Position numbers and translations under genes: made by a program. Under the pieces are notes generated by a model. That model did not search any database. It saw nothing but the letters and a program-made list of their open reading frames with translations, and had not been told where the DNA came from. Positions 2-59,780 of a DNA stretch of 64,000 nt are shown piece by piece. The stretch covers positions 744,001-808,000 of the forward strand of contig JAUSMV010000030.1 of NCBI GenBank assembly GCA_030645235.1. The letters are read 5' to 3'. Each line of letters begins with the position of its first letter. The first letter of the stretch is position 1. This stretch comes from Parvibaculum sp. (GTDB lineage: Bacteria > Pseudomonadota > Alphaproteobacteria > Parvibaculales > Parvibaculaceae).

Positions 2-127
2 GGCAAAATGACGACGCGTACCGGTGGCCGCCCCGCCGAACAATTCCGCTTCCGCCGCGAAGTGCTGAACGAACGCCCCGCACCGGGCCTGCGCCTCGCG
101 CCGTCCAAAAGCCGTGCGGTGAGTTAG
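2..127 (+). CDS. C-terminal fragment of an unidentified protein
   Basis: An open frame runs in from the window edge and stops at TAG just before the next gene. The visible 41 residues are basic and rich in Arg and Pro, with the tail APSKSRAVS. I do not recognise the family, and the start lies outside the window. The GC-rich third positions match the neighbouring core genes, so it is probably the real 3' end of a gene rather than a chance frame. Confidence 0.4.
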   Translation, partial: GKMTTRTGGRPAEQFRFRREVLNERPAPGLRLAPSKSRAVS

Positions 128-38667: not shown

Positions 38668-38734
38668 GAATTTTTCACGCGAAAACACCAACAATTGCCA
38701 CAGGAGATCGGGCGTTTTCATGTAAAGATTATTG

Positions 38735-38763
38735 CTCGCCTATAGGCGAGACTCGCTGTTTTT
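38735..38763 (+). terminator. possible terminator after ccrM
   Basis: CTCGCC-TATA-GGCGAG forms a 6-bp hairpin followed after eight bases by TTTTT. A second small palindrome (GTTTTT...AAAAAC) overlaps the T run. It is weaker than the other terminators in the window. Confidence 0.45.
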
Positions 38764-38816
38764 GACGGAAAAACGGTGACGTGTGCCGAACATTCAACCA
38801 AGGGCAATTCGCCGTG

Positions 38817-39651
<835 letters not shown>

Positions 39652-39655
39652 AAAC

Positions 39656-39856
39656 CGGGGACAGATTTATTTTGCGGGATAAGTATCCGAACGCGAACAT
39701 AATCCCCCATGGGGGATAGTGATTTCGGCTCCGCCCTTTTTGACTACTCGAAGCGAGCTACGATCTCTACATGGAAACCTCGAATCTCTTGCAAGAAATA
39801 CTGATTGCTTCGAGTGTTGCTCGTTGCGTTTATCCCCGAAAATAAATCTATCCCCG
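39656..39856. mobile_element. 201-bp MITE-like element with terminal inverted repeats
   Basis: The ends are 27-base inverted repeats with 24 matches (left begins CGGGGACAGATTTATTTT; the right, reversed, begins CGGGGATAGATTTATTTT). An internal 39-base stretch ending CGAATCTCTTGCAAGAAAT recurs in reverse at 59.6 kb with about one mismatch, and both copies hold an ATCCCC...GGGGAT palindrome. No transposase is encoded. The right end overlaps the mutY stop codon. Confidence 0.75.
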
Positions 39857-40930
39857 CCCGCCTTCTATGCCCGCCAGCGCCACGACTTTGCGCATCAGCG
39901 ATGGCAATGCTTCGTCGGCCAGCTCGTCTTGCGCGATCCACACCCCCTCGGCTTTCGTCGCCGTGGCCGCGCTGACCTCGCCGACAAAAACCGTCAGTAT
40001 AAGGTGGAAATGGGTGAATGTGTGCTCGACCAACCCCACGCGCTTTTTCCATTTGGCTTTGAGCGGCGCAAATTCCGCATAGTCTTCCGCCACTGCGTCC
40101 GCCCACGGTGTCGTCGGCACTTCCATCATGCCGCCGAGCAATCCTTTGGCGACGCGTTTCCTGAGCAGCACCGCGCCGTCAGGCCGCGTGACGAAGAAAC
40201 ATGCGCCGTGTCTCACGGGTCGCGCCTTCTTCGGCGCGCGGCGCGGCAATGTGTCGGCGATGCCTTGCGCATTCGCGTCGCACATGTCGATCACGGGACA
40301 GCGATTGCATGACGGGCTCTTTGGCGTGCAGATCGTTGCGCCCAAATCCATCATCGCTTGCGCGAAGTCACCGGCGCGTTTGTCAGGTGTCAGGGTTTCT
40401 GCATGCTCGCGGATTTCGGGCTTTGATAAAGGCAGTGGTGTTTCAATGGCAAAGAGCCGTGTCACCACGCGGTCCACATTGCCATCGATGACGGTGGCGC
40501 ATTTGCCAAAGGCAATGGCCGTGATCGCTGCCGCCGTATAAGGCCCGACGCCCGGCAACTTCTTTAGCTCATCTTCTGTGGACGGAAAGATGCCGCTATA
40601 TTCATTCGCGACCATCTGCGCGCAGGCATGAAGGTTGCGCGCGCGGCTGTAATAACCAAGCCCCGCCCAGCGTTTCATCACATCATCAACGGGGGCGGCG
40701 GCGAGCGCCGTGACTGTCGGCCAGCGGCTCATAAAGTCACGGAAATAATTACCGACCGCCGCCACCGTCGTTTGCTGGAGCATGATTTCAGAAAGCCATA
40801 CCGCATAAGGGTCCGTCGTCTCGCCGGGCAGGAACCGCCATGGCAGAACGCGGGCATGTTTGTCGTACCAGCGCAGCAGCGCGGGCGCGACCGGACGCGC
40901 GTTTTCCTTTTGTTTCCGGAGCTTTCTCAT
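39848..40930 (-). CDS. mutY: A/G-specific adenine glycosylase
   Basis: MutY removes adenine mispaired with 8-oxoguanine. The 360-residue protein has the HhH-GPD region (WLSEIMLQQTTVAAVGNYF, LPGVGPYTAAAITAIAFG, VIDGNVDRVVTRLF with the catalytic Asp), the [4Fe-4S] ligands in CTPKSPSCNRCPVIDMC, and a C-terminal NUDIX-like 8-oxoG recognition domain with VEHTFTHFHL. The ATG at MRKLRKQK is used; 174 upstream codons of the track frame belong to the divergent DUF721 region. The last two codons and the TAG stop lie inside the repeat element's terminal repeat, so the native C-terminus was probably altered. Confidence 0.94.
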   Translation of the reverse strand: MRKLRKQKENARPVAPALLRWYDKHARVLPWRFLPGETTDPYAVWLSEIMLQQTTVAAVGNYFRDFMSRWPTVTALAAAPVDDVMKRWAGLGYYSRARNLHACAQMVANEYSGIFPSTEDELKKLPGVGPYTAAAITAIAFGKCATVIDGNVDRVVTRLFAIETPLPLSKPEIREHAETLTPDKRAGDFAQAMMDLGATICTPKSPSCNRCPVIDMCDANAQGIADTLPRRAPKKARPVRHGACFFVTRPDGAVLLRKRVAKGLLGGMMEVPTTPWADAVAEDYAEFAPLKAKWKKRVGLVEHTFTHFHLILTVFVGEVSAATATKAEGVWIAQDELADEALPSLMRKVVALAGIEGGRG

Positions 40931-41005
40931 GGTGTGACTTCTGACGGATTCCGCGTTCCCGTCAACCGGACTCGCACTTGCCGCATTTTCAAAGCAGAAT
41001 GGGCC

Positions 41006-41536
41006 ATGTCCAACAGGTCCGATCATATTCTTGCGCCCAAACGCTTCAGTGTACCGCCGATCGGCACACAGGTGGCGGGCCTGACGCGCGAGCTTTTTCG
41101 CAAACGTGGCTTTGCGGAAGGCCATATTCTGGCCCATTGGCCCGATATTGCGGGCGACGTTATCTCTGATTATTCCGCGCCCGAACGCCTCGTCTATCCG
41201 CGCCGCCCCAATGAAGGGCGTGGTCCCGCAGGCGCGGCGGTGCTCGAAATCCGCGTTGACGGGCCGATTGCGCTCGAAATCAGGCATCTCGAACCCCAGA
41301 TTATCGAGCGCATCAATGCCTATTACGGCTATGCCGCCGTCTCGCGTCTGAAGCTCACCCAGGGCCCCTTGCCCGCCCGCCCCAAGGCACGTCGCCGCCC
41401 CATCAGGGCGCTGTCGCCCACGGAGCGTCAGGGGCTCGCAGACGAGCTGCAACCCATATCGGAACCCGACTTAAAGGACGCTCTGACACGGCTCGGCGAA
41501 CGAATTCTGGGGAGAACTTTGAGAACAAAAGCATGA
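41006..41536 (+). CDS. DUF721 (DciA-related) protein
   Basis: A 176-residue protein with the DUF721 core: IGTQVAGLTRELFRKRGFAEGHILAHWPDIAGDVISDYSAPERLVYPRR, then VLEIRVDGPIALEIRHLEPQIIERINAYYGYAAVSRLKL. DUF721 includes DciA, the loader or operator of the replicative helicase in many bacteria. The alphaproteobacterial branch has this core plus a basic C-terminal tail (RPKARRRPIRAL). The gene is divergent from mutY across 75 bases and precedes the DsbA-like gene. The helicase role is inferred from family membership. Confidence 0.78.
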   Translation: MSNRSDHILAPKRFSVPPIGTQVAGLTRELFRKRGFAEGHILAHWPDIAGDVISDYSAPERLVYPRRPNEGRGPAGAAVLEIRVDGPIALEIRHLEPQIIERINAYYGYAAVSRLKLTQGPLPARPKARRRPIRALSPTERQGLADELQPISEPDLKDALTRLGERILGRTLRTKA

Positions 41537-56105: not shown

Positions 56106-56312
56106 CAGCGCCCCCTCTGTCGCGGAACCTGAGAGATTTCGCGGTTTCGGCAATCGCCTGAGCCGCTTACGCCCGTCGGTGAGAACAGCCTAGTCCGGCT
56201 GCTCTGCTTTCCAGAGATTCATCCCCCTGCGGTCCTTTGTGCCTGAGAGTTTCCGGGGCGGTTGCTCCTTCGGCGCCGAAGCTCAATCGATGGCTCCGGT
56301 CTCTCCCGCAGA
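56106..56312 (-). promoter_or_regulatory. tandem glycine riboswitch
   Basis: On the minus strand two similar aptamers follow each other. The first has GCGGGAGAG, GCGCCGAAGGAGCAA, CTCTCAGGCACAAAGGACCG and a closing TCTGGAAAGCAGA. The second has CACCGACGGGCGTAAG, CTCTCAGGTTCCGCGACAGA and GGGGGCGC. This is the classic glycine riboswitch pattern, about 60 bases before gcvT. Glycine binding is expected to turn the gcv operon on. Confidence 0.95.
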
Positions 56313-56347
56313 GTTCATGTGTATGGCTCTGTATCGGTAGTGGCGCG

Positions 56348-59593: not shown

Positions 59594-59780
59594 CGGAGGA
59601 TAAGTTTATTTTGGGCATGCAATTCGCTCGATGCAGTTGCAATTTCTTGCAAGAGATTCGAGGTTTCCATGCAGAGATCGTTGATCAGTTTGTCGAGCAC
59701 CTAAGCAGGCGACGCGGATGCCAATCCCCAGTTGGGGATAGATTTATTTTTGAAAATTTATCCCGCAAAAATAATCATCG
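59594..59780. mobile_element. second copy of the MITE-like element (inverted, diverged)
   Basis: It begins CGGAGGATAAGTTTATTTT, a weaker form of the terminal repeat. It then contains ATTTCTTGCAAGAGATTCGA and the flanking 39-base match to the element next to mutY, in the opposite orientation, followed by the ATCCCC-AGTT-GGGGAT palindrome. It ends in TATCCCGCAAAAATAATC, like the other copy's end. No transposase is encoded. Confidence 0.7.

Follow-up and report, generated by a model that had tools for sequence, protein, structure and literature searches.

What keeps the copies of a short dispersed bacterial repeat alike has been an open question since the 1980s, with transposition, selection and gene conversion as the candidates. 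DNA uptake sequences (DUS/USS) are evenly spaced, intergenic and found as species dialects. They share all three traits with the repeat family described here, which differs from them in having a 34-nt core, only ~90 copies and no graded near-matches. The BIME/REP elements of enterobacteria are also similar, being short palindromic modules around other motifs that lie outside genes, mostly at 3' ends or between convergent genes; in the present family, however, the main conserved module lacks palindromic symmetry and is a fragment of a protein gene, and at shared loci the sister species carry different ones. Homogenisation of REP sequences by gene conversion has been proposed, to judge from the title of a 1988 paper by Higgins that PMC3733652 cites. 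REPINs, which depend on RAYT transposases (PMC3116915), likewise form a dispersed, homogeneous and non-autonomous population of short repeats, whereas the present genome has no Y1/RAYT gene and a paired inverted repeat is no trait of the family. MITEs and the enterobacterial RU elements (PMC2759123) are, like this family, 100-200 bp long, intergenic, devoid of a transposase and able to supply coding ends, but this family conserves an internal core instead of terminal inverted repeats. A published description of the family was not found in the literature.

The window, i.e., the whole 64,000-nt stretch that was analysed, corresponds to contig C58:744001-808000 of the 3.83-Mb source genome (G000). 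In it, the initial annotation described a 201-bp element next to mutY (Table 1), and most of what it reported on this copy holds. The two 27-nt arms are complementary at 24/27 positions (89%) and enclose 147 nt, and the right arm supplies the end of mutY, encoding Arg-Gly-stop with the TAG as the complement of 39848-39850. The element indeed has the duplicated tail of ccrM on one side and mutY on the other, the products of both genes having been identified by the family scan of the window (MutY, TIGR01084, 315 bits; CcrM, 650 bits), and it is predicted to fold strongly. A clear target duplication was not seen at this copy, as had been noted before, and the ends of the family cannot be defined because the flanks differ among copies. 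On the ccrM side, G000 carries an insert of ~985 bp after ccrM (window 38668-39655) with a hypothetical gene (38781-39470) that has no NCBIfam match, downstream of which the last ~150 bp of ccrM are present a second time (39502-39655). This insert is absent from the sister species.

Table 1. Features of the two element copies in the window (window coordinates).
Feature	Position	Strand	Remark
Left inverted-repeat arm, 27 nt, CGGGGACAGATTTATTTTGCGGGATAA	39656..39682	no strand	Peculiar to the mutY copy
Right inverted-repeat arm	39830..39856	no strand	Encodes the final two codons and the stop of mutY (minus strand)
H1 short palindrome, TAATCCCCCATGGGGGATA	39700..39718	+	Based on column conservation and fixed distance to the core
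uup-like tract (-22..+49 around the core), borders CTCGAAGC/GCTTCGAG	39743..39814	+	Interspecies replacement
34-nt core, CTCTACATGGAAACCTCGAATCTCTTGCAAGAAA, TA / CTCGA haplotype	39765..39798	+	
mutY, altered C-terminus (...GIEGGRG*)	39848..41137	-	Start codon approximate
Second copy, core	59643..59676	-	After rnhA
Second copy, uup-like tract	59627..59698	-	
Second copy, H1 palindrome	59723..59741	-	

That the element belongs to a family had been proposed from a second copy after rnhA. This copy is a related element with its core on the minus strand, and the family extends well beyond the window. A 34-nt pattern matches 92 sites of G000 at up to 3 mismatches, 57 of them exactly, and the reversed control pattern matches none. 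All copies are located on the five largest contigs hit; the other ~80 contigs, which are small, have none. In an alignment of the G000 copies on the core, conservation is 97-100% in most columns from -4 to +33 and drops in two variable blocks at positions 3-4 and 14-18. The H1 palindrome at -65..-47 shows a column conservation of ~45-80%, and the spacer between H1 and the core is near random. H1 lies at exactly -64 from the core in 58 of the 92 copies; a distance this constant across a near-random spacer points to selection in addition to copying. Each copy has a ~71-nt interior, with the nearly invariant 34-nt core in it, and around this a partly palindromic (TATCCCCG-rich) shell that is specific to its locus. 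The 27-bp inverted repeat of the mutY copy is not part of this common structure: own-arm scores equal the scores of arms swapped between copies, terminal repeats are not shared, and the arm-pairing score exceeds 11 in only 2 of 87 copies (L001 and L010, the only ones above background). The MITE-like identity assigned initially is thus not retained, since terminal repeats are no family trait and conservation centres on an internal core derived from uup; a MITE with terminal repeats was ruled out by the swapped-arm test.

By a crude gene finder, the 42 copies with long flanks are placed as REP/BIME elements are, outside genes and at 3' ends or between convergent genes: none overlaps a predicted gene, and 24 of the 41 copies with both neighbours typed have convergent neighbours. 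The copies are spaced more regularly than by chance (CV of the gaps 0.67 vs 0.98; 0/5000 simulations as low): 2 gaps are shorter than 7 kb where 14 would be expected, and the widest one is centred on uup. The copies are discrete and without graded near-matches, as exemplified by a scored stretch of 400 kb: of its 15 sites, 14 exceed 40 bits, and the range of 5 to 30 bits is empty. Among the core haplotypes at positions 3-4 and 14-18 nearly every combination occurs, independently of flank similarity save for a weak link of positions 3-4 to the adjoining 20 nt.

One of the 92 core matches resides inside uup itself, a 609-codon open frame for an ABC-F ATPase of the Uup type (Uup is the best family in the scan, with a score below the equivalog cut-off). 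This frame holds the core in frame as LDEPTNDLDMETLDLLQEML, which encodes DLDMETLDLLQEM downstream of Walker B. Identity between elements and uup is 0.76 in segment -22..0, 0.85 in 0..20, 0.99 in 20..34 and 0.44 in 34..50, and it amounts to 0.59 in H1 and to 0.27 in the spacer against a background of 0.25. The elements are on average 0.785 identical to the uup of their own genome and at most 0.704 to that of any congener, and they carry the synonymous bases of G000 uup and not those of the congeners, at a site where the encoded residues are nearly identical across all congeners. The higher identity to the own uup, together with these near-constant residues, makes uup the likely donor of the core, captured recently relative to the genus. 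In most copies a derived TG replaces GA at core positions 3-4, which points to elements as the source of the later copies.

With the G000 element as query, DNA searches gave no match in congeners, and the other 25 congeners are without the family. At the family level, 39 genomes contained no core beyond uup matches and a single site with 2 mismatches, and the exact core pattern was absent from viral contigs and from the contigs of 85,000 species (this genome and near ones left out). The Y1/RAYT transposase domain (PF01797) has no match in G000 and is present in 1 of 27 genus genomes; a RAYT-driven REPIN was ruled out on its absence from G000. The earlier statement that no transposase is encoded thus extends to a Y1 gene anywhere in G000, and a search for an autonomous partner by PF01797 alone found none.

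The family is known from only two genomes, G000 and the sister Parvibaculum G003, a fragmented MAG whose uup is 81% identical to that of G000. The G003 element downstream of mutY has a different core, which recurs elsewhere in that genome: a search with it returned 43 places at E<=0.01, ~30 of them strong and a few of them coding genes, and the number of elements is put at ~30-40. The footprint is also 34 nt long, with the invariant blocks CTCGACATGGAA-NNN-CTCGAA-NNNN-GACAGGAAA. Because this core tolerates more variation, the G003 family was detected solely via the mutY locus; high-copy 18-mers like those of G000 were not found in 265 kb of G003 or in 400 kb of a further genome, G013. Candidate donors of the G003 core are prmC (identity 0.58) and uup (0.55). 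Mapping of flanks yielded 24 G003/G000 pairs at the same locus, partly found via known elements, with equal orientation in 23/24. The fraction of shared loci rests on a small unbiased sample, G000 C58:1-400 kb, where of 8 mapped G003 elements 5 have a G000 core, 1 a degenerate one and 2 none; each species has gained some elements of its own.

Comparison of these pairs separates the history of the flanks from that of the cores. Near flanks score 49 vs 22 and 53 vs 18 in orthologous vs swapped pairs (0/5000 permutations), whereas cores score 29.4 vs 29.6 (3194/5000 permutations). Flanks are locus-specific, and cores are no more alike at orthologous than at random loci, which is the mark of concerted evolution. 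On the left, similarity between the two species is locus-specific up to -25 and leaves a faint trace in -25..0; on the right it is absent from 34..50 and returns at +50. The tract replaced between species is ~75 nt long, and from its limits it matches the uup-like tract. Elements at the same loci in the sister species have species-specific cores inside inherited flanks, and the core appears to have been rewritten in parallel at many sites, i.e., to evolve in concert.

This history also bears on the end of MutY, which the initial annotation regarded as reset by the insertion. The tail is altered with respect to relatives, in which MutY ends in ...MPDxGPLFxK or MPDxGPLFxKR, as it reads ...VVALAGIEGGRG in G000. 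In G003, however, MutY ends in VVALAMPDEGPLFSKQSKK, with an intact tail and an element at the same locus. The G000 tail was therefore probably lost after the element was present and not upon its arrival. On this comparison, an element is placed at the mutY locus already before the species split.

Core-like stretches also occur in coding genes. Two of the 92 core matches are inside conserved genes, addB (G000:C58:1436519) and queD (C58:25749), both antisense and both named by eye from the protein sequences. In these stretches, with L457 and L456 as the G003 loci, each species shows its own core type, and AddB aligns to a congener without an indel across the core-like stretch. These cases speak for replacement over insertion, although they are only two and codon effects may contribute. 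The gene prmC (G000:C24:9863, G003:C89:9818) also resembles the core of its own species, in the codons for DLDMETL..AQE, and may be either a further donor or a gene that was itself converted. Coding matches in a response regulator (RR) and alr (G003) and in hemH (G000) were considered as donors and set aside, several being doubtful in that helices like LDMETL..QE share codon similarity.

Taken together, these data are best explained by gene conversion with a putative enzyme and a putative donor event. The interior would originally stem from uup, through ectopic gene conversion over a short tract, and would since have been copied from site to site between CTCGA and TTCGAG borders, causing all sites to evolve in concert. 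More weakly, the core may in addition be held as a DNA site, as in BIMEs, e.g., for a protein with an architectural function or one linked to supercoiling; this role is suggested by the even spacing, the 3'-end location and the extreme constraint on the core. For the whole, that is ~90 dispersed mosaic repeats with a uup-derived core, homogenised by such conversion and with a putative role as DNA sites, we see about an even chance. RecA recombination usually needs homology near or above the length of this tract. The homology available for conversion here is 34-75 nt, which argues against this reading, and divergence among the flanks in G000 is too great for recent copying to be seen directly. 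The constant H1 distance, the near-equal identities of prmC and uup as candidate sources in G003 and the restriction of the family to two genomes also count against it. An unlikely reading is a dedicated mechanism of cassette exchange or copying, by which a ~75-nt core would be rewritten at ~90 fixed sites at once, with new cores taken from host protein genes (here uup) and coding sequence of conserved genes (e.g., addB and queD) at times overwritten.

High copy number, a location mostly outside genes, species-specific gains and restriction to one lineage are also what a non-autonomous mobile element would produce. A MITE- or REP-like element of this kind would have picked up a piece of uup and then inserted anew at identical preferred sites in either lineage, namely the repeat-rich gaps between convergent genes; the repeat-rich flanks could serve as a target. 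We consider this unlikely, as terminal repeats are not shared, a Y1 transposase is absent from G000, the core-like stretch of AddB preserves length, and orientation is equal at 23/24 shared loci with inherited sequence reaching to 25 nt from the core. Because of these inherited flanks and orientations, transposition alone is insufficient. Selection on genome-wide sites of a putative chromosome-organising or regulatory DNA-binding protein, with the core following changes of the protein in both species, seems equally doubtful. The near-invariant 34-nt footprint in both species, the even spacing with its largest gap centred on uup, the location between convergent genes and the fixed H1 distance all agree with it, but the other 25 congeners have no such family, and multi-base core haplotypes common to many loci require copying and not point mutation. 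Moreover, a uup tract of ~71 nt cannot come from binding-site selection, which alone is thus insufficient.

Two further readings are very improbable. For a structured RNA or a transcription terminator, the location at gene 3' ends, the H1 palindrome and the strong fold of the window copy could be cited, but most core bases are near-invariant, no Rfam family matches at the element, and covariation between the arms across the core was not found, own arms pairing no better than swapped ones; an RNA hairpin across the core was ruled out on this ground. Spread of a DNA-uptake-type sequence through biased uptake and recombination would account for even spacing, a mostly intergenic location and species dialects, and has just as little probability. 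It was ruled out by the lack of a continuum of partial matches (none at 5-30 bits in 400 kb), and to our knowledge all known uptake signals are far shorter than the 34-nt core.

Parallel rewriting of scattered sites is rarely visible in bacteria. Here, each locus common to the two sister species retains its own flanks around cores that differ between the species and are uniform genome-wide, which makes the copied tract measurable (~75 nt) and a donor gene nameable. If coding genes are overwritten as well, this process would also change proteins in patches, which models of ordinary point mutation do not capture.

Some other repeats and a known RNA element were seen along the way. At two G000 copies (L079 and L102), a 21-nt unit, CTCGACATGGAAACACTCGAT or its TG variant, stands in tandem immediately before the core. 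Another dispersed palindromic family, CCTCTCCC..GGGAGAGG, occurs at 12 places in G000:C58:1-400000. In the first 400 kb of G013, 18-mers (GAGACGGCCGCAATCCGC...) are repeated 49 times at few places (L258-L277), perhaps as a CRISPR array. Finally, the window contains a glycine riboswitch (Rfam RF00504, 69.9 bits) at 56220-56318 on the minus strand.
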